Part shown: positions 3,962-45,548 of the stretch, piece after piece | How the letters are laid out: each line of letters starts with the position of its first letter | Numbering within the stretch: the stretch's first letter is position 1 | Assembly: GCA_017871115.1 (NCBI GenBank) | Contig: JAFCIZ010000010.1 | Span: forward strand, 337,001-401,000 | Source: Cunninghamella blakesleeana | Lineage: Eukaryota; Mucoromycota; Mucoromycetes; Mucorales; Cunninghamellaceae | Direction: 5' to 3' | DNA: 64,000 nt | Made by a program: the position numbers and the translations under genes | The notes under the pieces: generated by a model | What the model was told of the DNA's origin: nothing | Seen by the model: only the letters and a program-made list of their open reading frames with translations | Databases searched by the model: none

Positions 3962-5929
3962 ATGGATATTTTACCTATCGAAGTACTAGAAAATATACTT
4001 GGTCATTTATCACAAAAACATGCCGCAACAGTTGCTTCAATCGTGTGTAAAAAATGGAACAAAGCTATATTACAATCTTCTTTTTATTATTCTATTTGTA
4101 TTCTTACCGAACATCAATTAAAAAGGTTTATTAATGTAGCAAATGAAAAAATTATAAACAACCAACCTATCGGTTGTTATGTACAACAACTAAAACTTCA
4201 TCGCTCTATCAATATAAATGTAGATGTATTGATAAATATAATGAAAGTATTTCCAAATATTCATTTCATTAGTGGATTATCATATTGCACCTATAATTTT
4301 GACATAGTTTATCCTCATCTGAACCAACTTACACATTTTTCTCGCTGGTATAAAAACAGCCAGTGGATGGACCACCTTATTTACAACAAAGAAATTGTTA
4401 AATCACTTGATATAAATATTAATAAAGATATGTTTCATTTCAACCCACAAAGTCCTCCACCTATTCATTTTAATTTGATTGGTAATGAAAGATTAAGAAC
4501 AAATCAGAATCTTCCTATTCAGCTGTTAGTATTGCCCATATTAATTAACTTGGTCAAGTTGGATATTAGCTTTTATCACTTTAATGCCTCATTTTTATTT
4601 CCTAGATGTGAATCTATCGATTCATTTGCTATCGATGAATGTACGTTTGAATCTGTCCATAAAGCTTGCCCACAGCTTACAATATTAAAAATTTCATATA
4701 TCAAAATGGCAATATCTAAGGAATACCATAACCGACCATTTATACCTGCCCATCAACTAAAAGAATTACATCTCCATGGTACCTTTACTGATCCATCATG
4801 CTATACGTATTTTTTAAACAAATATAGTCACCTTGATTCATTTTACATACAGCTGGAATTACAAGCATTAATAAATAATAATGACAATCGATCTTTTCAA
4901 CTAGCTATTACTCGTATGTTGTTTGGATTTTCAGTATTAAAAATCATATCTATTACATTGTCGGATGAACATTCATATGGAGATTTAACAAAATTTAAAA
5001 AGCACTGGCCACATGATGAATTTTTAATGTGGTTAAAACAATATTCTGAGCAGATAACTCACTTAGAATACCCTTGTGATTTCATCCCTAATGATGATAC
5101 AGGTACAGAATTATTACAACAACCTACCTTTTTGACTTATTTAACAAGTTTATCACTCTGTCTTGATAATGCAGCTCATCTCTTATCAACTTATAATTTA
5201 CAAAATGTGGATCATTCGATCGTCATTTCAACGTTTTTAAAAAAATTAAGCGTCCGCCAATACAACTTCAATAATGTCAAAAAATTTTATATTTATGACT
5301 TTTTAACTGCTTTCCCTAATTTGGAATCATTACAACTATACTTTATTCGATTTATATATGATGAAATTGGAGATGTGCTCCATAAAGACAGCCGATGGGA
5401 ATGCACAAAATTGCACCACATAATTCAACATCGATTATTTGATACTGATTCTATCACCTCGAATAATCAAAATGAAAACGATACTTATAAATTGAAACAT
5501 TTGAAAATAGTTAGATGTGGTATTTTTTTTGGATACGGGTTGAGTTGTTTTTTAAAAAAATGTCGTCAATTAAAAAAATTAAATTTACAAATTATTAGAT
5601 ATGCTATTTCAACAGGTGATACAACCTCATATTTTCATTATGCTCCATCTTCATGAATACTTTTGCTACAAGCATGTTCTCTTGGAGAATTATGTTTCGA
5701 TTTATCACATCTTTATTTTCAACACCTCTTTATAAGTAACTTTTATTGCACTTCATGGGAAATATATGATACGGAAATGCAATATCTTGTTAATAAATTA
5801 GTCATAAATGAAACTTTACCTGGTCGTGAATCGATCCTTAACGGAGACATGTACAAACAATTTACAAATCGACGCTGTTGTTTAGCATTAAAATGCAAAT
5901 ATATTGATGAACTAATCTTTAATAAATAG
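3962..5929 (+). pseudogene. F-box/LRR-like protein, copy 2, with in-frame TGA
   Basis: Tandem duplicate of the gene at 1748, offset by 2214 bases and sharing upstream sequence. The frame is open for 564 codons, then meets TGA at 5654-5656. The same frame continues without shift to the normal stop at 5929, and its last 90 codons still match copy 1 (CSLGEL, then KCKYIDELIFNK at the end). In copy 1 the TGA position is a proline codon. The product could be a 564-residue protein lacking its last repeats, or a full protein by readthrough; a recent pseudogene is the simplest reading. Patch-wise differences from copy 1 begin near codon 207 (positions ~4579-4620) and increase toward the 3' end. Confidence 0.8.
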
Positions 5930-22927: not shown

Positions 22928-24760
22928 TTATTCAGTAATTTCAATAACTATTTCGCTGTTTTCTTTCTCCGAAAAATAATCTGATTCCAGTAAACAAATA
23001 CCGCCTCCATTCGATAGTTCTCTAGTTATTGTGTTCCTATTTATTCGAATGGCTCGACAACAATCTTTAATGGACCCAAACGTTTCATTGTTATCCATGT
23101 TATATACATCAGTAATAGTAACTCGTATCCCAACTGCAAATTGAACATTCTCTTTTTGAGTGACCCATCGTAAATTTCTATAATGGTTATCATGTCTAAT
23201 TCCATTGATATGATCAACAACAAGACCATTTTCGTAACTATCGTATGAAAATGTATAAGCAACAATTCTATGTACTAGTTGTATTATTTCTTTATCATCC
23301 TTATCTTGCAAGGCTATTGATAGATACCCCTTTCTACCTATATATGAATTAACAATTTTTTTGTTGTCAGTTTTTCTGATTCTTCCATGCGTGGATATTT
23401 TATAATTTTTGAAAAATACACTGCGATATCGCTGTAATGGAATCCATTCTTCTTCATCGTCATATTGTATAGCATCAGGCATCGGTATAGGTTCTCTATC
23501 TTTTCCATAATCAGATACATGGTAACGTCTGGTGTTTTCCTGTGATGTCACGTATTCCAAATTACCAACGCGATTATCTTTTTTATTGCCATTTACATGA
23601 TCAATAACCATTCCAATTGGTCTCTTCTTAATAAAAGTGTGTGCTACTAGACTATGTATAGATACACACTTAAATAAATAATATGTATGATGTTCATTGA
23701 ATTTAAGGTCAGGGTACAAGTCAATCCAATAATATTCACCTCTCTCTTTTGGTTTCAATATTGTTCCCATTGTCATTGAATAAACATCTCCGTCGGACGA
23801 AATGAGGTAGTTACCAAATGTTCTTCCATCCACTATATCATTAATAGTTTCAAACTCTTTACAAGGATACAATTGGTTTAGTTTAACTTGATGATAATTA
23901 ACAAACTGATCATAATTATACGCCAATAAGTTTTGAAGAGTATTATCATTCTTTACTCCATTTTTATGGATTATATAATAGGGTCTAATCATTGGTTCAA
24001 AGAATGTTTCTACCATTGCTTCTGCAATTGAAAAACTGTATCTACCACTGTCAAAAGATGTAGGTAAGCGAATATAACTGTTCTTATCATCACCTTCCAT
24101 GTTTTGATAAGCTGTCAATGTATCATAGATGCCGCGATATACATTTCCTTTTGTATCAATAAATAGATGTTTTTCTACATGATTTAAATAATGGTGCTTC
24201 AATATTTTAACATCTATATAATTTAAATACAAATTACTCAATATATATATATCCTATTAGTGCCATAAATTATATTATAGTTGCTTTTAATTAAGAAATT
24301 ATATAATGAATTACCATTTCCTGTATTATTTTTTATCGAATTCATTATATATTCGTCCGCTTCATTCTTGCTGAATTTTAAAATATTATCGACATTCGTA
24401 TCTTCTTCATCATCATTCAAAAGAAATATTCGATCATTTTTGTTCATACCAAAAAAAGTTTCTGCAACAATTTCCTTTAGTAGAGGTGTAGTACACCCGG
24501 AAGCACCATTTAATTCATATGGAATTTGCATCTGCCTTGCTCCATGATTCACTCTATTACCTTTCTTTTCTTTACCTTTGCTGTTATATATTTTTCCTTC
24601 TTCTGTAATAGTGTGGGTAATTATTGCATTTTTTGGTATTTTAGGGTGTTTTAAAGGAAAGCCTATATGTATGTATGTATGTATGTATATATTAGTTTTT
24701 TTGTTTAAAAATGTATTTTTTACTATGTGGCATATACGTACATTTTTTATTTGAAGACAT
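22928..24760 (-). CDS. Four-module NUMOD/HNH-like endonuclease protein
   Basis: Three exons (minus): 24760-24742 (19 bases), 24662-24315, 24213-22928; 550 residues. Two intact HNH_3-type modules occupy about residues 240-345 (DHVNGNKKDNRVGNLEYV at ~327) and 380-480 (DHINGIRHDNHYRNLRWV at ~456), each preceded by a NUMOD4-like strand (FGNYLISSDGDVYS; YKISTHGRIRK). Two upstream copies are degenerate: ~124-230 keeps only IIHKNGVKNDNTLQNLL and ~15-115 keeps the order GKIYNSKG, VAETFF, NVDNIL. The end (about 490-525: SIKDCCRAIRINRNTITREL) looks like a NUMOD1 helix-turn-helix. Such proteins are homing-type endonucleases, common in phages, organelles and giant viruses and less so in nuclear genomes. 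Joining exon 2 to exon 3 turns two overlapping short frames into one protein. It is divergent from the topoisomerase II-like gene, 565 bases away. Confidence 0.85.
24667..24689 (-). repeat. (ATAC)n tract next to intron 1 acceptor of the HNH gene
   Basis: Plus strand ATGT/GTAT repeats, reading (ATAC)n in the sense of the HNH gene, immediately before the TAG acceptor at 24663-24665. Confidence 0.8.
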
Positions 24761-25325: not shown

Positions 25326-28300
25326 ATGAGATCTAAGAATAAAACCCATAAACACAATAGTGATGATGAAGACTATAAACCAACTGATGAACAAGGAGTT
25401 CATGAAAGTGATGAAGATGATTTCCAACCACAGGTCAAAGTAATGGCAGCATACTGACTAACTAGTGAACTCGAAAATTAATATTAAAAGAGATAATTAA
25501 TTATGTCTTCTTTTTAATTTTAATTTATATATTTATAGAAAAGGACCAAAAGGCGTATTAACGTAGATAGAAGTACATCATCCCAATCTACTTCAACCCC
25601 TAAAGGTGGTACTTCAACTCAACCTGTTTCAGTTTCTGAAGATAGTACTTCAACGGTATCGACTTCCACTTCTAATACATATAATGTAAATGAGCCTCAA
25701 TCAACAAAGAGGAGGAAGATATCATTATCTCTTAATAAACAAAGAAAGGCTGATATTATGAATGAAACTACTAGTCAAGGTAAAAAATCTATCAAGAAAA
25801 ATGACAACGAGGATGATAGTAGTGATGATGATAATGCAGTCAAAGCTATTAGCCAAACTACAAATATTATCAGCAAAAATGATGATGAAATTCCTGATCA
25901 AAGAACAGTTTATGATACCATTTATAGAAACGTAAATGATTACGTTGGCTCAGTTGACGATGAAGAACGTGAAGAGTGGATATTAGATGAAAATAGACAA
26001 CAATTTGAAAAAAAGAAAATTCTCTGCACTCCAGCAATATTGAAAATAGTGGAAGAAGTCCTCTTGGATATAATGCAAAATAAAGTATTATATTTATTTA
26101 TATGTATACATGAATTATTGATACTAATAGTTTCTTTTACTAACTTAATTTGTATTATTTTTATTTTTTTAAAAATAAAATAAAAAGAAACCAAAAAGGC
26201 ATTTTACAACAAAGTTAAATATTGACTACGAAGAAAAAGAAATCACCATTTATAGCAATGGAGAAAACAATCAACCATTAATAGAACGATATGGTACGTT
26301 ACCAATCAATGTAGCTCAACAAAATGAGAAATACTGGCCAGCTTTATGTAACATGTTTTGTAGTGAATTCATGGTGGAAACTGTTAAAAAAGATGAAGGA
26401 ATAGGTCGCAAACAAGTATTCAAAACCCTTATGCAAGAAATTCTGCCATTGGAAGAATATCAATACAGAAAACACTCTTCAGTGACAATCACCTTTAAAC
26501 TTGATAAGCATACATTCTCTCTTTCGGAAACTGATTATAAAAAATACATAGCTTTATTTAAAAAGCGGTGTTATGATTTATCTGCTTTGATTCCTTGCGC
26601 AGTATTGCATTTGAACGATTCAAAAATACAAGTTATGAATTTTATGGAATATACACAATTTTATACTAGTGCACTTATCAGTCCAATTTTAAAAGATAGT
26701 GATCCTATTATTTTTGATGGTGGGCACAAAAAAGATGAACATTGGGTAATTGGAATAGCAGCTAGTAAAGGCACGTTTAGCCATGTAAGTGAAAGTTACT
26801 CTATATAAATTAAAAATACAGTTTTGATAATTATTTATTTATTTATTTTATCATTTAATTTTTTAATACTCGAAACAGATAAGTTTTGTTAATGGTATAT
26901 CAACGAAAGATGGCACTCATGTTGAACATGTCAGTGAAAAAATATTGGCAAGCATTTATGATGATATTCAAAAAAAATATGAAGGTGAAGATTTGGAAAT
27001 GGATCAAATAAAAAATTGCATTTGCCTTTTTATTAAATGCGACCTTAATAAATTTACATTCAATAATCCACTAAGAGAAAAAATGACGCTACCAAAAGAA
27101 CAGATATCTCCATCATATGAGCCATCAAAAGTCTTTTTAAAAAAAAGTATATAAATTATCTGATAATAGTCATATAAACAATTGTATTTTATTATTTATT
27201 TATTTATTTATACGTATATATAAATAGTTAAAGAATCAAATCTAATAGATAATATTATAAAGATGATAAATTTTAAAGATTATTCCAATTTTGGCCAAGA
27301 AGAATATATGGAAAGGTAAACATTATAGTTTAGTCATATAACCAATTTTTATTGATGACAATTTGCCGACTAGTGTTTAAATAACTGCTACCTATATAGA
27401 TTTGTAGATATGCCTAACTTTTATGATGCTACTATGGCTGGTGTTCGTCCATATAACAAAGAATGTACTTTAATTATTGTAGAAGGAACCAATGCTATCT
27501 CCTTCGCAAAAACTGGAATAGCCACATGTAACAATGAGATATTTGGGTTATACTTCCTAAAGGAAAAGTTAACAAATGTGCGAAATAGTAGTCCATCTAG
27601 GTTTAAACAAGCGGCAGACTTAGCGAATGTTATGAAAATTATGGGTTTAAATTTTGGAACACAATATAACGACGTTAATGACATAAGATATGGAAGAGTA
27701 TTGGTCATTACCGAAAATGTATGTTTTTTTTTTTCTATCTACGTAAATATTATGATTTACTTTATATATATATATATATATATTTATTTATTTATTTATT
27801 TATTTATTTTAGAATTATCAAGGAGCTCTATCAAAGGGCCTCATATTAAGCTTCTTTGAAAAGCTATTCCCGTCTTTATTGAAAATAAGGGGTTTTATTG
27901 GAGATTTAACCACACCGATAAAAAAAGTAAAATCGTGCTATTCACTTATATCTATCTATATATCTAATTATTATTATTATTATTATTATTATATAATTTT
28001 TAGTGCGTAAACATGGATGATGGTCAAGAAAAATTATTCTTCTATAATACTGATTACGAAAAGTGGTCAAAGAATGTTAATGAATCTATATGGTCAATCA
28101 AAGAGATAAAAGTAAATACTACATAATATATCTTAAAATTATTATTCATATATTTGTTTATTTGTTTGTTTAAAAATAGAATCTTAACTCTTTGAATGAA
28201 AATGATGCACGCCTAATCTTTGGTAACATTAAAAGGTATCACCGTAAAATTGAACCGCTTACAGAAAATGACGCTGAACTTCTGGACTTGGTCTTCTCTG

Positions 28301-29984
28301 CACATGAAATAAGAGAAAGGAATGAATGGATAAAGAATTTAAACAAAGTAAATAATAATATATAATATAACATTCTTATTTTACAATTGGTAAAAACTTT
28401 ATTTATTTAATAATAAATTTTATGATAATATATATAGGAGGATCATATTAACCAAAGAGGACCAGTGAACATTATTACAACATTTTTGAAACCCATTCTT
28501 GCCTGTTACTTTATCGATAATAATTTACGTGCTATCCCACATCTTATGGATGGCTGTACTACTACACAACGAAGGATAGTAAATGAATGCTTTAAGAAAG
28601 ATAAGGAATTCCATATTCTGGAATTAGCCAATAGTGTTTGTCATTCAACAAAATTGTACTATGAAGCAAACCAATATATTGCCGACATTTGTAAGATGGT
28701 TCAACCTCACAATATAAACATAATAAATTATTTTGGCAAAGTTGATACTGATTACTATGTAAGTTTTTTTTTGAAAAATATATAAATGTGAAGAAAGAAT
28801 ATTTTTATTTATTAATGATATTATCCATTAGACATTCAACGATAACATTAAATATAATAACCTCTACATCCGTGTATCTCCTTTGTTAAGATCCATTTTC
28901 CTACAGGAAGATGATGATATATTACCATATTGTGACAATGACAATGGTGCCCTTGAAAAAAAATAGTAAGAATGTTTTATATTATATTTTAAAACAATCT
29001 ATATTGCTAATTGATCCTTATTTTAATTAGTTTTCTACCTATTTTACCCATGATTCTTGTTAATGGAAGTAATAATATTGGTGATGGTAATAATGATAAT
29101 AAACAATGAATTACCTCTGATGCATTTTTTTTTACTATATGTTAATTTTAATTTTATTTTTAAAGGTGTTGTATCTTTTATACCAAAATTTAATCCAAAA
29201 GATATTGCTGAATGTATTATATCGATGCTTGATGGTAATGAACCAGAAGAATTGAAACCTTGGTTTGCAGATTTTAAGGTAATAAATTATCAAACAAGTG
29301 CTTATGTATTAAAATTCATACTTCATTTATTGATTTATTGCTTTATTGCTTTATTGATTTTTATTCTACTTTAACTTAAAAAATTCATTAAGGAGACTAT
29401 AAAGAAAAATGAAACTGAAGAGTTCTACACAACTTATGGCGATGCCCATTTTCAAGATGATACTTCTATAATCATTTCAAGACTACCTTACGGACAAAAG
29501 GCTACTGATATTATCGATCATTTAAAAAAACTTATTCCAAATGAAAATCAATATGGCATTTATATTGAGGTATTTCAACTACACAATTATACATGTATAT
29601 ATCAATTTTATGTCACTTACACTTTAATATTATTATCACTCTTTTTCATAGTCTTATAAATGTATGAATTCAAATGAATATTCAATATGCATTCAAGTTT
29701 CTGTGAATAAAGAAAATGGTGAAAAAATAAAAGAAAAAGGGCTACATGACGTATTTAATTTGAAAAGTAGCATTCATTTTAGAAAATTATTTTGTGTAAA
29801 TAATAATGATCAAATTAAAAAGTATGAATCTCCTATGGAAATCCTCAAAGACTTTTATGATTATAGACTAACTTACTATCAAAAAAGAATTTCTACCCAT
29901 CAAGATAATGAAGGTTTATTGGCTTCAAATTGCTGGAAAATGGATCTCGAAGCGTTCATTGAGGAATATAATAGTTTTTTTTAA
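25326..29984 (+). CDS. Degenerate DNA topoisomerase II-like protein (predicted catalytically dead)
   Basis: Fifteen exons: 25326-25439, 25539-26084, 26188-26784, 26879-27146, 27228-27315, 27400-27718, 27813-27926, 28004-28111, 28180-28347, 28438-28758, 28832-28965, 29031-29086, 29166-29278, 29393-29569, 29652-29984; 1151 residues with no stop. After ~165 charged residues it is collinear with eukaryotic TOP2: DYVGSV, EVLLDIMQNK (~211-220), CNMFCSEFMVET, SFVNGISTKDGTHVEHV (~421), VEGTNAISF (~565), LKEKLTNVRN, LMDGCTTTQRRIV, YFLPILPMILVNG, SPMEILKDFYDYRLTYY, stopping inside the C-gate coiled coil. Catalytic residues are changed: GHKL Asn is Asp215, the GRNGYGAK loop is replaced (~264-272), the QTK loop is missing (~483), EGDSA is EGTNA, DxDxD is E643-x-N645-x-Q647, and the Arg-Tyr pair is Asn890-Asn891. 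The open frame across 15 exons argues for a retained non-enzymatic role (inference). Confidence 0.88.
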
Positions 29985-30582
29985 ATAATTTTTTTAAGCT
30001 AGAGATAAATAATAAATAATAAATAAATGAAATAACCTGATATATTTTATACTTAATCTATATGAAGTTGATACTTATTATATGTGCCATTTACGTAAAG
30101 AAAAATAAATAAAGAATGAAACAAAGAAATATATTAATGCTCAAGTACAGATTATAGATATCGTTATAGAATGACTATATGACTATATTATAAATCATGA
30201 TTTTCCAAATATCTTAAATAATACCATTGGCCAGAACTTTTTATAAATTTAATGCTACAAGATTTTTTTATTTCTCATTCTTTCGTTCTCTTCACTTTTT
30301 TCAAAACTATTTATTTCCTTGTTATGTTTAATAGCCATAAGTAACCAGCTAAATACTAATACTTATTTTTTTAATAAATTAATTCAAAATAAATACAAAG
30401 TATCTTTTTATATAGGAAATGATAGTCAGCTTTATTCGATACAAATCTTTTCCCAATATTCCCATTTAAAATTCAGAAATGGAATTATTGGTAAAGTTTC
30501 TTTTATTTAATAAAACATAATTGAGATGGGAAAAATAACAATCTAACCTTATCGTATATATAAAGTAGAATAAAATACACCA
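29985..30582. other. Intergenic, convergent 3' ends
   Basis: The gap lies between the ends of the topoisomerase II-like gene (plus) and the second CAP gene (minus). A 63-codon open frame at 30319 shows no coding character. Nothing else is recognised. Confidence 0.55.
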
Positions 30583-31609
30583 CTAATTGGTCTTGGGAAG
30601 AACATTTTCTCTAAATTGATCCATATAATTTCCTGGTTGATAATAGTTACAACTGTAGTATTTACCATTTGGACAATCATGAACTGCACAACCTACAGTT
30701 TTAGTGCTCTTCCAAACGACGGCACTGAAGTGGCCAGTGCGCCCACTGAAGCCAGGGTTATTATAATTATAAAGAGGTTCTTCAGAATCGTACCAACCGT
30801 TCATGACTTGGTCGAAATTTCTATAGCCTAGAGCAATGTTTTCGCCATATTTACGCTATTTTAGTATTATAAAAGGGAAAGGGAAAAAAAAAATAGAATG
30901 CAAAGTCAGTCTATTGGTTATTTATGTATGTATGTATGTATGTATGTATGTATGTATGTATGTTATTGATTGATTGATTTAAACTTACATTTTGACTATG
31001 ACCCCAATTACATTTTGCAACCCAAGAAGCAGCGAAAGCGGCAGCTTCTTCATTCCAGGTTAAAGGAGGGGATGAATGCATGGCTCGACGAGTATTATGT
31101 AAATCCAAAATATGACTAATTTCACTGGATGAAAGACCACTAACAGATTTGGAAGGAATATTTGAATTTTTTGAACCATTTCCGCTACGAGAGTTTGTAG
31201 GATTAGGGGTGGAAGTAGGAATAGAAGTAGCAGAAGGAGGAGGAGTAGCAGTAGGAGTAGGTTTTTTCTTTTTATGATTAGGGCGTTTTTTGTGTTGAGG
31301 TTTCTTCTTTTTATTACCACCACGTCTTTTAGGGGGACGGTAGGACTTGGATTTTTGATTACCAAGATGTTTACCGTGATTTTTGCCATGATCTTTAAAA
31401 TGGCCAAGGTGTTTTCCATTATCTTTAGGGTGTTCTATACCATGACCTTTACCATGGCCAAGATGTTTACCATGGTCAACATGAGTACCATTTTTACCAA
31501 GATGTTTATCAATGGAAGGGGAAGCATCTTTATCATGAGGTAAACTACCAGCATTTACCATAAAACTTGTACCAACCAAAGCTAATACTAAACCAGTGGA
31601 GAATTTCAT
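30583..31609 (-). CDS. Secreted CAP/PR-1 domain protein with His- and Lys-rich extension
   Basis: Two exons (minus): 31609-30989 and 30855-30583; 297 residues. The signal peptide is about residues 1-20 (MKFSTGLVLALVGTSFMVNA). Residues ~30-85 are a Gly/His/Lys repeat region (HGKHLGHGKGHG, GKHLGHFKDHGKNHGKHLG) that could bind metal ions or acidic polymers. Then comes a strongly basic block (~90-115, KRRGGNKKKK, HKKKK), then a Pro/Thr/Ser linker (~117-145) likely to be O-glycosylated. The CAP domain follows (~165-297): ILDLHNTRRAMHSSPPLTWN, KCNWGHSQN, YGENIALG, GWYDSEEPLYNYNNPG, GHFSAVVWKSTKTVGCA, YSCNYYQPGNYMDQF. It is paralogous to the gene at 20802, with the same exon junction just before the GENIA block but a normal GTAAGT donor. 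Confidence 0.92.
30923..30962 (-). repeat. (ATAC)n tract in CAP gene intron
   Basis: Ten TATG units on the plus strand, (CATA)n in the gene's sense, inside the single intron of the second CAP gene. Confidence 0.9.
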
Positions 31610-31972
31610 TGTCGTTTTTTTTTTTTAAAAAAAAAGAGAAAAAGGAAAGGGAAGGGTTATAAAAAAAAAAAAAAAAAAGTAATAAAGAAGAGTAGAGTAA
31701 AGAAAGAAGAAGATAATTTTTTATTTTATTTTTTTGACATATTTATATTTGGCATAATTTCTTCTAGACTAAATTTTTGATCGAAAACATTTTAATAAGG
31801 TGTAACCATGATATCATTTTATTATTATTATTATTATTATTATTAAAAATGATAATATAAAATTTAAATGAATCAATATATATATCAAAATGTTGTACAA
31901 ATAAAAAAAAACGAGTTTCATTCAAAAAAATATTAAGAATAATAAATGAATAATATAAGTTTATGCTTTTAT
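31610..31972. other. Upstream region of CAP gene; end of TMEM18 gene
   Basis: A/T-rich, with an A-rich leader directly before the CAP start, an (ATT)n run at 31821-31845 and no coding frame. Confidence 0.5.
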
Positions 31973-32765
31973 TTAATCGTTTTTAGTTTTATTATTGTTG
32001 TTCTTTTTATCTGGTGTTGACTTTGCCTTGTTCATTAATTGTCGGCGCTTCATTTCTATCATTAAACCAAATGATGCTTTTAATATAAACATCTATTATT
32101 AAAAAATGAAAAAAAAAAAAAAAAAAAAATATATGATTAATTAATTAACAACTTAAAAATAATTTTTTCTTTTTAAATTACCAAAGTAAAAAACCCATTC
32201 AATATTAAAGGAAATGCATATAAAGAGACGATAAATATTCCAGATTCGTCAAAATAATTAGCCGAAGCAAAAGATTGCCAATGGTTTCCACCATATTGAT
32301 TTAATGGCTGTGTTAATGCTGCTAGTCCCACTATAAAGTTTAAAATATAAAAAGGTAAGGAAAGGGAAATCAAAAGTAAAGATTATAAATATTTAAATAT
32401 GTATATATACATTATTTTCACTTACATAAAATAAAGAAATAGTATGATAAAATTGTATGTTTATTACGGAGTATGATAACTAAAAGAAAGCATACGATAT
32501 GAAATATGACAAGTCCTATTAACCATGTTTGTGACCAATCAATCTATTATTTGATAAATATATAAATATGCATTTATATTATTAAAGATAAAGCAGAATT
32601 ATACGTATACAAGTATATATATATTATTATTATGTATTTATTTACTGCTTGGAAAAACTCTATAGTTTGATATATTTGTTCCTGTAATAAGGAACTAGCT
32701 TTTGATTCTGATTGTGGTAGCTTTGATAGTATATTTTTAACAAGGTCTTCTTTTGAAATAGTCAT
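31973..32765 (-). CDS. TMEM18: TMEM18 family membrane protein
   Basis: Four exons (minus): 32765-32646, 32543-32426, 32330-32182, 32092-31973; 168 residues (human about 140-160). TMEM18 is a small protein of the inner nuclear membrane / ER with three transmembrane segments; its molecular role is not settled. Family landmarks are FFQAIDWSQTWLIGLVIFH (matching the TDW..PWLMGL..FH block), hydrophobic IVCFLLVIIL and SYYFFIL, NQYGGNHWQSFASANYFDESG (matching N..NW..F....YFD..G), FIVSLYAFPLILNGFFTL, and a basic Lys/Arg tail (EMKRRQLMNKAKS..DKKNN). The conserved blocks are each split by introns, so the product is only visible after joining. A 40-residue N-terminal extension precedes the family start. 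Confidence 0.9.
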
Positions 32766-39154: not shown

Positions 39155-40474
39155 TTATAGATCAATTCCATAAGTTTTAGATACATGTGTATTCCAATAT
39201 ACATCTGGCATTTGTAATAATTTGAGTCGGTTTCCATGTACACGCTTTATTCTTATGTTATTAGAGTCTAGAGATTTAATCAAATAGGTACCTTTTCCTA
39301 AAGATTGATGTATAGTATACCTTCCTTGCCACATATCCGATATTTTACCTGACCATGAGTTTGATTGTATTCCTGTATATAAGGTTACTATTTCACCAAT
39401 TCTAAAAGCTGGTTTCCATTCGCGGTCTCGTTTATTTACTTTCTTATCTATTGCCTTTTTCTGGTTTTCTTGCGACCTTTTGATTTTTTCTGCTGATTGT
39501 TGTCTTATTAGATTTAGTGCAGTAATTTCCTTTTTTGTTCTGAGCATTATCTGATTTTCAAAGTTATAAGAGTTAAAATCTACTATTGTGTCTATATGAT
39601 CAAAAGGAGTCTTTGGAATGTAACCATATGTTAAATAAAATGGAGATTGTTTTGTTGAATTTTGTTTTATTGTGCGATAGGAAAATAATACAGATGGTAA
39701 ATATTGATCCCATAATCCCTTTTCTGTTGTTGCAATCTTTTTGATAATTGATCCAAGTGTTGAATTAAATCTTTCTATTAATCCATTAGCTTGAGAATTT
39801 CCAACAGTAATAGTATTATGATGAATATTATATTGTCTACAAACTTTATTGATTAAGTCACTAATAAAAGGAGTACCATTATCCGATATAATAAGATGAG
39901 GCGTACCATGCCTACATATAATTTCTTCATATATAAATAAAGCAATTTCCGAAGTTGATTGATACTTAAGTGCTCGTGCCTCCACCCATTTAGTAAGATA
40001 GTCAATAGCGGCTATAACGTAACGATATCCACTTTTAGACGTTGGAACATGCTTGACATCAATTCCCCATTGTTCGAAAGGTTTTGATTTCACAGGAACA
40101 GGATATAAAAATTCGTTTAATTTCTTAGGTCCAGTAGTTTGACATCTTTTACATTTTTTAACATATTCTTGTATATCTTTAGCCATAGCATTCCAATAAT
40201 ATCTAGTTGATACCTTATATAAAGTATTATGATAACCGAGGTGACCTCCTAAAGGATGTTGGTGACACATAAATAAAACTTCCATAGCTTGTGTTTTATT
40301 TAGGACTTTTCTTAATGTTTGATGTTCTATATTATATTTATATAATTGATTTGATCGTACCACAAAGTTATGTGAATTTCGTTGTATATATCTTTTTTCT
40401 TTTGGTGTAATGTTGTTTGGTAGTTTTAAAGTGACTAAATATTGCTTCATATTATCTATTAATTGTTGATCCAT
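39155..40474 (-). CDS. Integrase of the retrotransposon, as a separate ORF
   Basis: 439 residues starting with its own ATG. The N-terminal zinc-binding motif is visible (HQHPLGGH, CKRCQ). The catalytic core has Asp in WGIDVKHV, Asp in IISDNGTPF and Glu in NSQANGLIERFNSTL (D,D-35-E type). A GPY/F-like C-terminal module follows (GEIVTLYTG...WQGRYTIHQSLGKGTYLI in pieces). No chromodomain. The start residues (MDQQLIDNMKQYLVTLKLP) correspond to the point where integrase normally follows RNase H in a Ty3/gypsy polyprotein, but here ~635 non-coding bases separate them and the frame differs. Integrase must therefore be made from a spliced or separate transcript, or the copy is rearranged. Confidence 0.92.
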   Translation of the reverse strand: MDQQLIDNMKQYLVTLKLPNNITPKEKRYIQRNSHNFVVRSNQLYKYNIEHQTLRKVLNKTQAMEVLFMCHQHPLGGHLGYHNTLYKVSTRYYWNAMAKDIQEYVKKCKRCQTTGPKKLNEFLYPVPVKSKPFEQWGIDVKHVPTSKSGYRYVIAAIDYLTKWVEARALKYQSTSEIALFIYEEIICRHGTPHLIISDNGTPFISDLINKVCRQYNIHHNTITVGNSQANGLIERFNSTLGSIIKKIATTEKGLWDQYLPSVLFSYRTIKQNSTKQSPFYLTYGYIPKTPFDHIDTIVDFNSYNFENQIMLRTKKEITALNLIRQQSAEKIKRSQENQKKAIDKKVNKRDREWKPAFRIGEIVTLYTGIQSNSWSGKISDMWQGRYTIHQSLGKGTYLIKSLDSNNIRIKRVHGNRLKLLQMPDVYWNTHVSKTYGIDL

Positions 40475-41109
40475 ACTAAGTAATTAAATTTTTGATAGGT
40501 GTGTTGATGTTATTGTTTACTAATTTTTTTTTTTTGTGTTACTAGCTTATTTTTTTTTTTGATAACTGATATTATAATTTTTTTTTTTTTTTTGTTGATT
40601 TTGTTGAATTAAGATAGGTAAAAAGTTGTTATTAAGTGATATATATGTTGATTGTATGGTGTGAGTATAGCTTTTTACGTCTTCAATCGTCTTTGGACGT
40701 TTGTTGTATTAAATAATTTATAAGTTGTGTGTTATTGTTTTTTTTTTTTTTGACTATATATATATTGTTGATTAAAAATAATTGTTGTATTATATAAAAA
40801 TTGTTTGAATAATATTGTTGTATAAAATTTGTTGTAAAACCAATAAAAATAAATGTAAAATAATTGTTAATAATATAATGTTATGTTAATAGATTAGCTT
40901 TTAACGTCTTCAATCGTCTTGGACGCTTGTTGTATGAAATAAACTATTGTGATAATAAAAATAAAAATCTTGATATTAATTTGTTGGATTAGCTTTTAAC
41001 GTCTTCAATCGTCTTGGACGCTTGTTGTATAAAATATATTTATTCATTTATTATTTCTTTTTTTTTTTTTTTATATTTTATATATATATATATGTATTTT
41101 TTTTTTTCT
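40475..41109 (-). other. Non-coding gap with three direct repeats between RNase H and integrase
   Basis: A/T-rich spacer. A ~40-base unit containing CGTCTTCAATCGTC and TTGTTGTAT occurs three times (plus-strand starts about 40669, 40894, 40989). The last two are identical over ~44 bases and the first carries a few changes. Each unit holds CGTC...GACG arms able to form a small hairpin. A TTACTTAG acceptor-like sequence lies right before the integrase ATG. The role could be an intron, an internal promoter or a translation signal; none is shown. Confidence 0.7.
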
Positions 41110-41247
41110 TTAATAACCAAGTCTTGAGAGAAAATCAGCCGATTGTTGTTTTTTACCACTTCTATATATAACTTCAAATTCATAATCTGCTAAATAAGTG
41201 ATCCAACGAGCTACCATACCAGTAGGTTTTGGTGATTTAATAAGTCA
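41110..41247 (-). pseudogene. C-terminal RNase H part behind an in-frame TGA
   Basis: The pol frame meets TGA at 41245-41247, where the family normally has tryptophan (SDHSPLK then W). The frame stays open afterwards (LIKSPKPTGMVARW, YEFEVIYRSGKKQQSADFLSRLGY in pieces), ending at 41110-41112. A TGG-to-TGA change would truncate RNase H by 45 residues, or the stop may be read through. Confidence 0.8.
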
Positions 41248-44241
41248 TTTGAGTGGAGAGTGATCTGATAATACTGTAAATTTTTTCCCAAGTAAATATG
41301 GTCTAAAAATTTGCAAACTCCATATAAGAGCCAAACATTCTAACTTAGTTGCACTATAATTTGCTTCACTTTCTTTTAAACCACGACTGGCATATATAAC
41401 AGGATGTTCTAGACCTTCTTCATCCAATTGTGATAATATAGTTCCAAGTCCATCAGTAGAAGCATCACAAACGATAATAAATGGTTTGTTATAATCAGCC
41501 CTTTTCAATATAGGTGCTTCAGTTAATTTTTGTTTTAATAATTCAAAAGATTTTGTTGTTTCCGCAGTCCAAGGTATTTTCTTTTTTGTTTTAGTGACAT
41601 TATGTAATGGTCTAGCAATAGCTGCAAAGTTTTGTATAAATCTTCTATAATAAGAAGCTAATCCAATAAATCCTCTTATTTGCTTGACTGTAGTTGGTAT
41701 AGGATAATTCTTTACTTTTTCTATTTTTGTAGGATCAGTTTTTATTCCATCTTTAGTGATTATATATACAAGGAACTTCAATTCATCTTTAAAGAATACA
41801 CATTTTTCAATATTGAATAGTAATCCGCCAAGTCTTGCACATTTAAATAATTCTTCTAAATCCAATAGATGTTGATCCAAATTATTCGAGTGTACATTAA
41901 GATCATCAATATATGCTACTAAGCATCTATTGATCATAGTTTTAAAACATATATCTATTAAACGTTGAAAGGTAGCTGGACTATTTACTAAACCCATAGG
42001 TAACATTTCATATTGATAAGTTCCAAACTTGGTGACAAAACCAGTTAATTCTTTACTATTTTCTTTCATAGGTACTTGATGGAACCCTGATCTAAGATCC
42101 AAAGCAGAAAATATTCTTGATACACCAATTTCATCAATTAAGTCATCTATTCTTGGTAAAGGATATGCATCTACTTTAGTTTGAGCATTAAGCTTTCTAT
42201 AATCAACTACCATTCTATAATCACCATTCTTCTTTTTGACTAAAATTATGGGAGCAGTATAAGGAGTGTTAGCTGGTTTGATTATTCCAAGTTCACATAA
42301 ACGATCCAATTCTGATTTTAAATATTCTTGTTCCATAGGGCTCATACGATAAGGTCTATGTCGTATTGGCATTGCATCTTGTTTTAGTATTATTTCATGT
42401 TCAAGAAGAGTAGTATGTCCCATCTTGTCATTATTCCAATCGAATACATCTTGATATTGTTGTATTAATTTCCAAAATTTTATTTTGTATTCCATTGGTA
42501 TATTTCCAAGTTGTAGTTTATTTTTAAAAGATTCATCCAAAGTGTCTTCTTTAATATCTGTTTCAATATTATTAAATTCTATATATGTTTTATATGGACT
42601 AAGCTGGTCTACTAAATTGTATCCTTCTATACCTTCATTATTCCCATTTTCATCTAAATTAAAAAATTCACTAATGATTTGATTAGGTGGTAGATCCATA
42701 TTATTATCAGACTTATTAATTAAATTTATTGTTGTGTGATCATAATTATTTTTTATTTTTGATTCATTTAATATGTTGCTTGTAGTTGTATGTATATCTT
42801 TATTAGAATCGATTTGTATTTGACATATTGAATACGGTGGTACAGTTAATCCATCTTTTCCTGTTGTAATAGTTGTTGTATCATCATCTTGTTGTATTTT
42901 TAAATTATTTTCTATTGTTGTAATATTATAATAATCATCTTCATCTTCGTCAGAATGTTCATCATGTTCCCATTCTTCTTCATCTGTTTCAAGGTCTGTT
43001 ATATCAGTATCACTTTCATCTAAAGTTTCTTTTTCATTAATTGCAATCTTGTTGTCTTGTTGATAATTTCCATTAATAGATTTAATTGATATGAGTGGTC
43101 TATCAGTTGATTTTAGAAATATAATAGGTAGTTCAGCTATTTTATGTTTGTATGTAACCTTTAGAGTACTTGTTTTAAAATTAAGGAGAGCTTGTACATG
43201 ACTTAACCAATTATTACCAAGAACTATATGAGCAGGACATCTGGGTAATACTTCCATATTGACCGGTATATTTATATCAGGTGTTACTTGTATATTAACA
43301 TCATGTACAATACCTAAGGTTGGTTGTTTTGTTCCATTTCCTAATACAAATATGTTAGTAGAAGGTGCATCTATTTCTAATCCTAATAGCTTCATCATTG
43401 CTTTTGACATACATGATTTAGCTGCTCCACTATCAATTAATACTTTGACTTTTTTATTTTCTATAATTAAATTAGTGTAAGCTGCAGTTGTTATTACATC
43501 TTCATTATCTAATGTATTTAAGTGTGATGATTCTGTTATTTGTTGATCCAATTTATTTTTTACTGATCTTCTTTTAGGTTTACATGCTGTTAATAGTTGT
43601 TTTCTTAAATGATGTGATGATTTTATTAAATCTCCAACTTCTATGTTAGCTTTTTGTTTGAATACATCTTTAATAATATCATATTCTATATCAATAGTTG
43701 CAGGAGGTGATCTTTTTCTTTTGGGTTTATCATTATTTTCAGATATTTTATTATGATTAGATGGAATAGTTGTTGTATCAAGTGAAACGATATCGATATC
43801 ATCCATCATTTCTTCTTTTTCTAAATCTTTATCTGTAATTTCATCATCCATTCTGATTCTTTTAGCTGATCTTGATTTTTCTGTAACCCTTTTTGTTTTT
43901 GCTGATGTTTCATGATGTTTAACAACAGGAGGTTTTTCTATTCTTGCAGCATATAAATCATGATTATTTATATGCGGTCCATAATTATATTCATCTTCTA
44001 TTTCTTCATTATTTAATAAAACATTCATGTTTTGATGGTTATCCATATTACTTGTATTTTGTTGATTTTTTTGTGTATTATTTATTTTTTGTTGAGTATC
44101 CATATGATGTTGATTATTTATATTTTGTTGGTTATTTATATTTTGTTGGTTATTTATATTTTGTTGGTTATTTATATTTTGTTGGTTATTTATATTTTGT
44201 TGTTTATTTTTATTAATGGATTTATTATCAGGGACTGCCAA
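41245..44241 (-). CDS. Pol: protease, reverse transcriptase, RNase H
   Basis: Open frame without a needed ATG; it is in the -1 frame of gag and is open upstream through the slippery site at 44271. The N-terminus has five QNINNQ-type repeats from an 18-base array. A retropepsin follows (VLIDSGAAKSCMSKAMM, about residues 265-281). The RT domain is complete: RMVVDYRKLNAQTK, FSALDLRSGFHQVP, FGTYQYEMLPMGLVNSPATF, LVAYIDDLNVHS with the YIDD catalytic pair, and YYRRFIQNFAAIARPLH. RNase H follows with DASTDGLGTILSQ and SDHSPLK, then TGA. An Asp/Glu-rich linker lies between protease and RT. Pol replicates the element RNA inside virus-like particles. Confidence 0.93.
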   Translation of the reverse strand: MAVPDNKSINKNKQQNINNQQNINNQQNINNQQNINNQQNINNQHHMDTQQKINNTQKNQQNTSNMDNHQNMNVLLNNEEIEDEYNYGPHINNHDLYAARIEKPPVVKHHETSAKTKRVTEKSRSAKRIRMDDEITDKDLEKEEMMDDIDIVSLDTTTIPSNHNKISENNDKPKRKRSPPATIDIEYDIIKDVFKQKANIEVGDLIKSSHHLRKQLLTACKPKRRSVKNKLDQQITESSHLNTLDNEDVITTAAYTNLIIENKKVKVLIDSGAAKSCMSKAMMKLLGLEIDAPSTNIFVLGNGTKQPTLGIVHDVNIQVTPDINIPVNMEVLPRCPAHIVLGNNWLSHVQALLNFKTSTLKVTYKHKIAELPIIFLKSTDRPLISIKSINGNYQQDNKIAINEKETLDESDTDITDLETDEEEWEHDEHSDEDEDDYYNITTIENNLKIQQDDDTTTITTGKDGLTVPPYSICQIQIDSNKDIHTTTSNILNESKIKNNYDHTTINLINKSDNNMDLPPNQIISEFFNLDENGNNEGIEGYNLVDQLSPYKTYIEFNNIETDIKEDTLDESFKNKLQLGNIPMEYKIKFWKLIQQYQDVFDWNNDKMGHTTLLEHEIILKQDAMPIRHRPYRMSPMEQEYLKSELDRLCELGIIKPANTPYTAPIILVKKKNGDYRMVVDYRKLNAQTKVDAYPLPRIDDLIDEIGVSRIFSALDLRSGFHQVPMKENSKELTGFVTKFGTYQYEMLPMGLVNSPATFQRLIDICFKTMINRCLVAYIDDLNVHSNNLDQHLLDLEELFKCARLGGLLFNIEKCVFFKDELKFLVYIITKDGIKTDPTKIEKVKNYPIPTTVKQIRGFIGLASYYRRFIQNFAAIARPLHNVTKTKKKIPWTAETTKSFELLKQKLTEAPILKRADYNKPFIIVCDASTDGLGTILSQLDEEGLEHPVIYASRGLKESEANYSATKLECLALIWSLQIFRPYLLGKKFTVLSDHSPLK
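44114..44203. repeat. 18-bp tandem repeat in pol 5' end
   Basis: Five tandem 18-base units (plus strand TTATTTATATTTTGTTGG, last unit one change) encoding repeated Gln-Asn-Ile-Asn-Asn-Gln blocks in the linker after gag. Confidence 0.9.
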
Positions 44242-44267
44242 TTGACCATTATTAACAATTGCCCTAT

Positions 44268-45425
44268 CTAGTTTTTTGATTGTTGGTTATCATATTGTTG
44301 ATTATATTGTTGATGAGATTGCTGTTGTTGATATTGTTGAATTGGAACTTGTTGAGAATTAGATAAGTTCTGAGCTGAATTGTAATAATCATTATATTGT
44401 TGAGGTTGAGGTGGTTGTTTATCATTATAATAATTATTATTATGATAATCTTGATTTTTCTGTTGTTGACGATAGAATCTTTTATTGTTGTATTGATTGT
44501 TATGTCTATTATAATTATTATTATTTGAATTATTAATTGGACCATTAGATTTAGCTAATTCAGAACGTACAAGTTTGATTATATCATCACTAGACATATT
44601 ATCATTATTTTTAGTTTGTTTTTTAGTATGCTGAATCTGTTCAATTTTGTCATTCACATTCTTTTCCATAGTCTCAACATTAAGAACCAATCGTTCTAAG
44701 AGTTTTACTATTGGGTCAGAGTTTGAAGATAAATTTGTAACTGATTCGTTTTTACTAAACTCCATAACATTAAATGAATTAATATTATTATGTGGATTAT
44801 CAATTGTATTTCTATCCATAGCGTAACCAGAGTACAATAATTGTTCATGTTCAGTTGTACGGTTGTTTATCATTCCATAATTCATTGATTTGTTAGCTGA
44901 CCACCAAGCTTCAGCATTTTTTAACCATTGTTCAGCAGTTATAGAAGCAAGAGCAATGCAATGTTTACTAATATTAGGATTCAATCCATATCTGAATCGC
45001 ATAAGAATAATATCATCATCTTCTTTCTTAGCTAATCTAGCAACTTCTTGTAATCTTGAGTAAAAGTCCCTTGGATGTTCCTCGGTACCTTGTTTCATTT
45101 CGTTTAGCATTAATTTATAAGATTCTAAAAGTTCAGCAGTAACGAATTTTGTTTCAAAAGCCGACATAACAATATCAAAAGTTAAAGAATCCTTGTATTG
45201 ATCCTTAAGACAGTCCAAATAAGTTTTTGCAGACTTGTGTACTTGAGTTCTTAATATGGCTAGTTTTCTTGAGTCACTTGTAGTATTTGTGAGTTCTAAA
45301 TAAGTTTCCAGCATTTGTCTGAAGTGGCGAAAGTCTTCACGCTCACCTCCAGTAAAAGGAATGAGTTTAGGAATGAGCTTGAGCAAAGGTTGTTCTTGAG
45401 CCAACGCGGTATAATCGTAAGACAT
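44268..45425 (-). CDS. Gag of the retrotransposon
   Basis: 385 residues. N-terminal part with typical Ty3/gypsy gag capsid features: LIPFTGGEREDFRHFRQMLE near 24-43, then helices including FDIVMSAFETKFV and GTEEHPRDFYSRLQEVARLA, the latter matching the usual Q...ES..EY..R...L region. The C-terminal ~130 residues are Asn/Gln-rich low complexity with some Arg, without a CCHC zinc knuckle, so nucleic-acid binding would rely on the basic/Asn-rich tail. It ends ...SKN at TAG (44268-44270), directly after the slippery heptamer A AAA AAC. Confidence 0.88.
   Translation of the reverse strand: MSYDYTALAQEQPLLKLIPKLIPFTGGEREDFRHFRQMLETYLELTNTTSDSRKLAILRTQVHKSAKTYLDCLKDQYKDSLTFDIVMSAFETKFVTAELLESYKLMLNEMKQGTEEHPRDFYSRLQEVARLAKKEDDDIILMRFRYGLNPNISKHCIALASITAEQWLKNAEAWWSANKSMNYGMINNRTTEHEQLLYSGYAMDRNTIDNPHNNINSFNVMEFSKNESVTNLSSNSDPIVKLLERLVLNVETMEKNVNDKIEQIQHTKKQTKNNDNMSSDDIIKLVRSELAKSNGPINNSNNNNYNRHNNQYNNKRFYRQQQKNQDYHNNNYYNDKQPPQPQQYNDYYNSAQNLSNSQQVPIQQYQQQQSHQQYNQQYDNQQSKN
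44271..44277 (-). promoter_or_regulatory. -1 ribosomal frameshift slippery site (A AAA AAC) at gag/pol junction
   Basis: In the element's sense, gag reads TCA AAA AAC TAG. The heptamer A AAA AAC fits the X XXY YYZ rule in the gag frame and lies immediately before the stop. After a -1 slip the ribosome enters the pol frame, which is open from here through protease and RT. Known retroviral -1 sites include this same heptamer. A downstream stimulatory structure was not worked out. Confidence 0.85.
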
Positions 45426-45548
45426 TTTATGGTTGATAATCTTCAGTTTTAAAATGAATAAACTTCAAAGAGTGTACTTGCAGAATGTAATAGTTTTGAA
45501 ATTTTCCTTAGTAGTTTTTAAAGTTTACCCTGTAGTTTTTTGAAGTTT

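Follow-up and report, generated by a model that had tools for sequence, protein, structure and literature searches.

A gene in a 64,000-nucleotide stretch of a Cunninghamella blakesleeana contig (the window) raises the question of how a topoisomerase II (TOP2) that has lost most of its catalytic residues has come to keep a long reading frame. The type II topoisomerases, essential enzymes, serve as drug targets, and it is debated whether TOP2 also has structural, non-enzymatic roles. The 15-exon gene is located at positions 25326-29984 (+) and encodes 1151 residues (Table 1). Its splice sites were picked by eye with the frame kept, and joining the exons at 14 GT-AG junctions gave exactly this length without a stop codon, bearing out the frame described in an earlier note on this DNA. 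The own frame had the top codon score in 14 of the 15 exons, exon 7 being the exception; the score of the gene is about half that of the canonical TOP2 of the same genome, which belonged to the training set. Splice acceptors ending in AAG, perhaps weaker sites, are present at three of 14 introns, compared with none of 14 in the canonical gene. One tRNA was detected in the whole window (Rfam, gathering threshold).

Table 1. Exons and altered motifs of the TOP2 paralogue (window positions)
Feature	Position	Strand	Remarks
Exon 1	25326..25439	+	residues 1-38, acidic N-terminal region; intron 1 phase as in canonical TOP2; own frame best
Exon 2	25539..26084	+	residues 39-220; charged N-terminal region and first GHKL part; own frame best
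Asp215	26067..26069	+	at GHKL Mg-binding Asn position (canonical N194, invariant in 116/116)
Exon 3	26188..26784	+	residues 221-419; GHKL and transducer start; own frame best
Residues 264-272	26317..26343	+	ATP-lid glycine box replaced (canonical GGRNGYGAK, 263-271); Tyr alone kept
Exon 4	26879..27146	+	transducer; own frame best
P483-L-R485	27068..27076	+	stands at QTK loop (canonical Q481-T-K483)
Exon 5	27228..27315	+	corresponds to exon 5 of canonical TOP2; own frame ahead of the other two, score near zero
Exon 6	27400..27718	+	TOPRIM; own frame best
E566-G-T-N569-A570	27482..27496	+	stands for TOPRIM EGDSA
E643	27713..27715	+	first Asp of DxDxD replaced; exon 6
Exon 7	27813..27926	+	TOPRIM end; only exon of 15 without own frame best
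N645 and Q647	27813..27821	+	start of exon 7; later DxDxD positions
Exon 8	28004..28111	+	P0205 identical here
Exon 9	28180..28347	+	comparison with canonical TOP2 and P0205
Exon 10	28438..28758	+	winged-helix region
Exon 11	28832..28965	+	comparison with canonical TOP2 and P0205
N890-N891	28856..28861	+	at catalytic Arg-Tyr (canonical R897-Y898)
Exon 12	29031..29086	+	FLPILPMILVNGSNNIGDG; I942 inside
Exon 13	29166..29278	+	tower; own frame best
Exon 14	29393..29569	+	tower; own frame best
Exon 15 with stop	29652..29984	+	tower end, C-gate base
15-residue linker ISTHQDNEGLLASNC, residues 1121-1135	29889..29933	+	replaces canonical C-gate arm 1127-1259

Duplication of the canonical TOP2 gene

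A separate canonical TOP2, for which the earlier note had suggested a search, was found on contig C11; it is intact, contains all catalytic motifs and is 99% identical to the C. echinulata TOP2 (P0086). The two C. blakesleeana proteins share 32% identity (blastp, 551 bits over 998 positions), a likeness that is thus not due to chance. All 14 introns are common to both genes, in the same order and phase, and the genes sit at distinct loci on distinct contigs. The window gene is therefore an old DNA-level duplicate of the fungus's own TOP2, intron for intron, and not a retrocopy. The shared introns also speak against a viral origin; TOP2 genes of the NCLDV type are not known to carry the introns of the host.

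Profile and structure searches agree with the collinear TOP2 homology claimed earlier. The best PDB match is yeast TOP2 (4gfh, 1.6e-119), and the Pfam matches are DNA_topoisoIV (PF00521, 158 bits) and TOPRIM_C (PF16898, 63 bits), with no others. The canonical protein is additionally matched by HATPase_c, DNA_gyraseB and Toprim; a Pfam profile search of the paralogue gave no HATPase_c match at E 0.001. By descent, as judged from collinear homology and gene structure, the paralogue belongs to the type IIA topoisomerases.

A tree was calculated from 32 of 115 database TOP2s, the canonical protein and the paralogue, whose end branch amounts to about 10 changes per column, so that its placement is unsettled. 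The free tree puts it within the Mucorales (fork 99/99), next to the Cunninghamellaceae (27/100). Under AU tests, neither grouping it with the canonical protein (p 0.634) nor keeping it outside a Mucorales clade (p 0.64) is rejected, and both constrained trees are slightly likelier than the free one. The duplication may accordingly be as young as Cunninghamella or older than the Mucorales.

Catalytic residues and the C-gate

The earlier note had stated that every catalytic centre was erased. All the residues it named were confirmed in place, but E211, at the GHKL general-base position, E566 and R819 are kept, so that the statement is too sweeping. Invariance was counted over 116 proteins, namely the canonical TOP2 and 115 database sequences with a length of 1100 residues or more (P0001, P0086-P0113 and P0119-P0204; P0002-P0085 and the fragments P0114-P0118 were left out). 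At the invariant positions that we take to be catalytic, set by canonical numbering, the paralogue retains six of 31. In the GHKL ATP site three of 19 invariant sites are kept, and the site therefore differs from that of an active enzyme; the lid helix upstream of residues 264-272 is shortened as well. The TOPRIM metal site has E566 together with D643>E, D645>N and D647>Q, and the cleavage Arg-Tyr is replaced by Asn-Asn. In exon 10, R805 and R819 are kept and canonical K816, H851 and H852 are replaced; I942 is kept at what is presumably the DNA-bending Ile position. Splice forms restoring the motifs were considered by eye, and each changed motif is either internal to an exon or placed at a junction that the canonical gene has too.

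The protein, which the earlier note had followed into the C-gate, runs to the C-gate base but has 15 residues (1121-1135) where the canonical protein has 133 (1127-1259, between TYYSKR and WKKDLDKFLIEWD), followed by WKMDLEAFIEEYN. The C-gate arm is thus about 118 residues shorter, the C-terminal tail is shorter too, and the C-gate coiled coil of active TOP2 is absent. A search for the missing part in 29600-32000 yielded weak short matches alone (26 columns, E 10; 9 columns, E 7.8). The earlier note had taken the charged N-terminal region for an innovation, which is wrong, since the canonical protein also begins with a charged stretch, about 124 residues long and likewise encoded by exons 1-2; in the paralogue, exon 2 contains the NLS-like motifs KKRTKRR and STKRRK (by eye).

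A structure model was built from an alignment of P0205 and 37 relatives, 18 of these from other search hits, and has a mean pLDDT of 70; its fold is partly imposed, because a TOP2 alignment was used in building it. The stretches 875-887 and 908-948, which flank Asn-Asn, are poorly predicted.

Selection and the C. echinulata counterpart

The selection on the protein that had been deduced from the open frame is supported over the long term. Neutral drift to the divergence from the canonical protein produced 34-77 stop codons in simulations, the lowest count coming with CDS-like mutation, compared with none in the gene. Conserved hydrophobic positions are kept at 240 of 281 sites (45 of 68 in the GHKL part), glycines at 18 of 38, inside the neutral range, and basic positions at 27 of 56 (neutral range 10-29). 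The core charge is -17, compared with -1 to +21 in the 116 TOP2s. Long-term purifying selection has acted on this protein, a probable pseudoenzyme.

A counterpart is on record in C. echinulata. P0205 spans residues 616-1041, beyond the ATPase part, and agrees with the paralogue at 412 of 426 residues without gaps in the aligned codons. Its annotation comprises 436 residues, which start within exon 6 and reach exon 14, ten odd residues being added; the gene may therefore be truncated in that assembly. Orthologues retaining the catalytic residues had been named as evidence against the earlier reading; over its span P0205 shares E-x-N-x-Q and Asn-Asn, but it keeps the TOP2-invariant residues at 849 and 983, which the C. 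blakesleeana copy lost after the split. Protein searches covered candidate lengths of about 633-2014 and 311-990 residues. Besides P0205, no close counterpart was present among the 85 and 24 matches listed, in a search that needs shared 5-residue words and that fast-evolving orthologues may escape; nor was there one above 32% identity in other genera among the matches listed.

Taken together, the catalytic losses, the absent stops, the kept hydrophobic core and P0205 indicate a pseudo-topoisomerase that was long under selection. It probably did a non-enzymatic job and may still do so. We put at about 0.5 the probability that it is kept by selection and works without chemistry, most likely as a partner or decoy of TOP2.

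The strongest competitor, although unlikely, is decay: constraint on a long-selected role would recently have gone, and the gene would be heading towards a pseudogene though still open. Constraint looks weak, because 14 of 426 residues differ from P0205 compared with 10 of 1207 between the canonical protein and the named C. echinulata TOP2, a roughly four-fold excess if P0205 and that TOP2 belong to the same strain. The losses at 849 and 983, the short annotation of P0205, the AAG acceptors and the lack of listed counterparts in other genera point the same way. However, all 15 exons are open, the 14 GT-AG introns are intact and the codons aligned with P0205 are gap-free, and neutrality since the split predicts 1.8-3.0 stops over the two copies where none is observed, which is marginal (P 0.05-0.16).

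Possible roles of the protein

The partner or decoy reading starts from what the sequence shows: an old duplicate of TOP2, alike intron for intron, has lost its ATP-binding and DNA-cleavage residues together with most of the C-gate arm, and over the long term selection has preserved both its open frame and the hydrophobic core typical of TOP2. The expressed product would be a nuclear protein, still under selection today, whose transducer-TOPRIM-tower body would bind protein partners, either TOP2 itself or its chromatin partners, and thereby modulate the real enzyme. At somewhat less than even odds, we tentatively describe it as a nearly full-length TOP2 paralogue of a mucoralean fungus: ATP site, metal triad and cleavage residues are gone, as is the larger part of the C-gate arm, and the folded body, now acidic and retained by selection, would serve as regulator or decoy for TOP2 partners.

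Improbable is a dominant partner, whose monomers would combine with canonical subunits into inactive or altered heterodimers. Human TOP2alpha/90 heterodimerises with TOP2alpha/170 although Tyr805 and two C-terminal dimer regions that have been characterised are missing from it, and a dominant effect is reported (PMC7304410). Likewise, yeast TOP2 forms without activity, among them one that stops at residue 1044, confer etoposide resistance beside the wild type (PMC2074512). The paralogue, however, lacks most of the C-gate arm. In the presence of DNA and an ATP analogue, dimers that lack the C-terminal dimer region do form (PMC7304410), but the paralogue has lost the ATP lid and the QTK loop as well.

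DNA-crossing binding or a chromosome scaffold clamping DNA with the TOP2 shape, which the earlier note had suggested first, is still less probable and is disfavoured because the core is acidic and the C-gate arm mostly lost. The DNA gate region is TOP2-like and R805, R819 and I942 are kept, but the basic positions are retained no better than by drift, canonical K816, H851, H852, R897 and Y898 are all replaced, and the flanks of Asn-Asn are poorly predicted. Misjoined exons or an assembly error masking an active TOP2, or a viral gene, are very unlikely: although the splice sites were set by eye, the altered motifs are internal to exons or fall on a shared junction, P0205, as an independent gene model, continues without a break over introns 6-13, all 14 introns are as in the host TOP2, and locus and contig are distinct from those of the canonical gene.

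The paralogue resembles canonical TOP2 (C. blakesleeana, P0086, yeast 4gfh) in its collinearity, introns, GHKL-to-tower order and charged N-terminal region; it differs by its acidic core and in having lost the ATP site along with the QTK loop, the metal triad and Arg-Tyr, as well as the C-terminal tail and most of the C-gate arm. In 2008 Stanvitch and Moore reportedly described C. elegans cin-4, an additional TOP2-homologous gene to which their title gives a chromosome role. Likewise an extra gene, it is presumably a partial TOP2 that has had a separate history, whereas the paralogue keeps the ATPase-to-tower frame with active sites that do not work. Topo VI B-like meiotic proteins are topoisomerase-derived subunits with a similarly degenerate ATPase; they are of type IIB, and their DNA-cleavage partner is unrelated. 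TOP2alpha/90 is a splice form of an active gene, identical over the first 761 residues (PMC7304410), whereas the paralogue is a separate diverged gene that has lost the ATPase too. Tetrahymena Top2G and Top2S are specialised copies of a duplicated TOP2, but both have ATPase, Toprim and Top2 A domains and are not described as dead in the accessible part of PMC5482572. No TOP2 pseudoenzyme of such extent was described among the literature matches listed.

If the gene is instead decaying, it is an example of a large 15-exon enzyme losing its chemistry ahead of its frame. If the pseudo-topoisomerase reading is true, the gene would be a natural separation-of-function TOP2 body, under selection without ATPase, cleavage residues and C-gate arm, and its role would lie outside ordinary strand passage.

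A second TOP2 locus with the introns of the canonical gene

A search of the 31.9-Mb, 12-contig genome, using WIN (the TOP2-like protein of the window) and the DNA_gyraseB and DNA_topoisoIV models as queries, turned up two TOP2 loci: the window locus itself (contig C10) and one on contig C11. As the earlier note had supposed, the latter is a separate canonical TOP2 (CAN; 15 exons, 1308 residues, catalytic motifs intact). Its best database match is the Cunninghamella echinulata TOP2 (99% identical, 10 differences over 1207), followed by proteins of Gongronella, Absidia, Halteromyces and Chlamydoabsidia at 76-77%. These matches make a Cunninghamella near C. echinulata the most likely host.

The splice sites of WIN were placed by eye and then checked against CAN and P0205, a C. 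echinulata database protein closely matching WIN. The joined exons give exactly 1151 residues, confirming the frame proposed before. Each of the 14 introns has GT-AG borders and measures 65-114 bases. By eye, three of the 14 have AAG acceptors, compared with none of the 14 CAN introns, and these may be weaker sites. The GC content of codon positions 1-3 is 0.40, 0.29 and 0.24, that of the introns 0.16, and with CAN included in the training set the codon score was best for the gene's own frame in 14 of 15 exons.

Aligned over 998 positions, WIN and CAN share 32% identity (551 bits), and all 14 introns agree in order and phase (0,0,0,1,2,0,0,0,0,0,2,1,0,0). Twelve coincide exactly in the alignment; intron 9, next to a gap, is displaced by one column, and intron 1 falls within the poorly alignable N-terminus. 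WIN is thus a duplicate of the genome's own TOP2. Since the introns correspond, a retrocopy is excluded and a viral source is very unlikely. The charged N-terminal region, which had been called new, is not specific to WIN: CAN carries one too, encoded by the same two exons.

The neighbouring HNH_3/NUMOD4 gene is transcribed divergently from WIN, and the genome search gave one further HNH_3 locus (C2:796112-796861). The F-box/LRR-like pair is probably a recent tandem duplication. Protease, RT and RNase H are encoded together in a 1013-residue frame of the LTR-type retroelement; a further frame of this element had no Pfam match.

Coordinates of WIN and other features (window positions unless marked L003, the stretch around the canonical TOP2)
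Feature	Position	Strand	Remark
WIN gene	25326-29984	+	15 exons
WIN intron 2	26085-26187	+	acceptor AAG, by eye
WIN intron 12	29087-29165	+	acceptor AAG, by eye
WIN intron 13	29279-29392	+	acceptor AAG, by eye
WIN exon 15	29652-29984	+	
HNH_3/NUMOD4 neighbour	22931-24253	-	two HNH_3 stretches and NUMOD4 motif, homing-endonuclease-like
Open stretch upstream of this neighbour	24241-24759	-	
F-box/LRR-like frames, tandem	1748-3721, 3962-5653	+	first 60 residues identical
LTR-type retroelement genes	39158-45464	-	integrase core and zinc-binding frame
Frame downstream of canonical TOP2	L003 8463-8690	-	long asparagine run from trinucleotide repeat

Catalytic sites and protein body

The 116 TOP2 proteins compared (115 from the database and CAN) share 184 invariant sites. 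In WIN, 86 of these are unchanged, another 86 carry a different residue and 12 are absent. Among the 31 that we take to be catalytic or ligand sites only 6 are kept, compared with 80 of the 153 others (Fisher p 7e-4). WIN keeps E211 at the GHKL general-base position, one NG-box glycine, one leucine after the glycine box, TOPRIM E566 and G567, and R819. Lost are the GHKL Asn (D215), the glycine box (264-272), QTK (483-485), DxDxD (E643, N645, Q647), Arg-Tyr (N890-N891) and two winged-helix histidines, and the lid helix ahead of the glycine box is shortened. In the last exon, 15 residues take the place of 133 C-gate arm residues of CAN; WIN becomes alignable again from the closing helix on, and its tail beyond this helix is likewise shorter than that of CAN. 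WIN matches only the Pfam families DNA_topoisoIV and TOPRIM_C, CAN five families. Residues that the TOP2 mechanism needs for hydrolysing ATP and for cutting DNA are missing from WIN.

Drift was simulated by randomly mutating the CAN codons, which stood in for the ancestor throughout, toward intron base composition until the observed amino-acid identity was reached. Over 200 runs, 62 stops accumulated on average (never fewer than 39), whereas WIN has none, and the mean BLOSUM62 score at changed sites was -0.95 (sd 0.07, best -0.74) compared with -0.19 in WIN. Two more 200-run sets gave 39-77 stops (intron-like mutation) and 34-63 (CDS-like). WIN keeps 240 of 271 aligned conserved hydrophobic positions (240/281 with gaps counted), the drift sets at most 220 and 195; for acidic positions the values are 27/47 and at most 24. 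Retention of basic (27/56; drift 10-29) and glycine positions (18/38; drift 5-21) is no better than the upper drift range. By domain, hydrophobic positions are kept at 40/41 in the transducer, 44/47 in TOPRIM, 47/49 in the tower and 45/68 in GHKL. The stop-free frame, the conservation beyond drift, and the codon GC and codon score show that WIN was selected as a folded body through most of its history, least in the ATPase part.

Recent constraint

P0205, annotated as 'DNA topoisomerase', matches WIN 616-1041 at 412 of 426 residues with no gaps, reads through the junctions of introns 6-13 without a break and shares the dead metal triad and the Asn-Asn. Assuming one strain for both C. echinulata proteins, differences between WIN and P0205 are about four times as frequent as those between CAN and the named C. 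echinulata TOP2. At the 14 differing sites the CAN-like state was lost by WIN in 5, by P0205 in 3 and by neither in 6. The annotated P0205 model is short and closes with ten residues (427-436, MNIQYAFKFL) which, by eye, match a shifted frame in window exon 15; in the C. echinulata assembly, the acceptor of this exon may be a different one. The difference rate, the losses of CAN-like states, the short model and the three AAG acceptors speak against firm constraint on WIN. Were both copies neutral after diverging, 1.8-3.0 stops should have arisen; none was seen, a marginal departure (P 0.05-0.16).

Charge and possible role

The WIN core has a net charge of -17, compared with -1 to +21 (mean 7.8) in the 116 TOP2s, and drift runs give a more basic core (means +22 and +28, lowest -4). 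Such an acidic core argues for protein contacts rather than a DNA clamp, which disfavours the binding of DNA crossings proposed in the earlier note. Because the core is acidic, the C-gate dimer arm mostly gone and the residues for ATP and cutting absent, we favour a role of WIN as a protein partner or decoy within the TOP2 network. There are precedents: human TOP2alpha/90, itself inactive, forms pairs with the full enzyme and reduces drug-induced damage (PMC7304410), and in yeast the etoposide response changes when an inactive or truncated TOP2 is present beside the wild type (PMC2074512). Inactive TOP2 polypeptides can therefore matter, and by analogy WIN might as well.

No inactive, dead, pseudo or truncated TOP2 paralogue gene like WIN is described among the listed literature, whose coverage mostly excludes subscription papers; the nearest gene, going by title alone, is C. 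elegans cin-4. As a pseudoenzyme paralogue WIN belongs to a known kind. It is unusual in that a large multi-gate machine has lost its active centres and kept its body.
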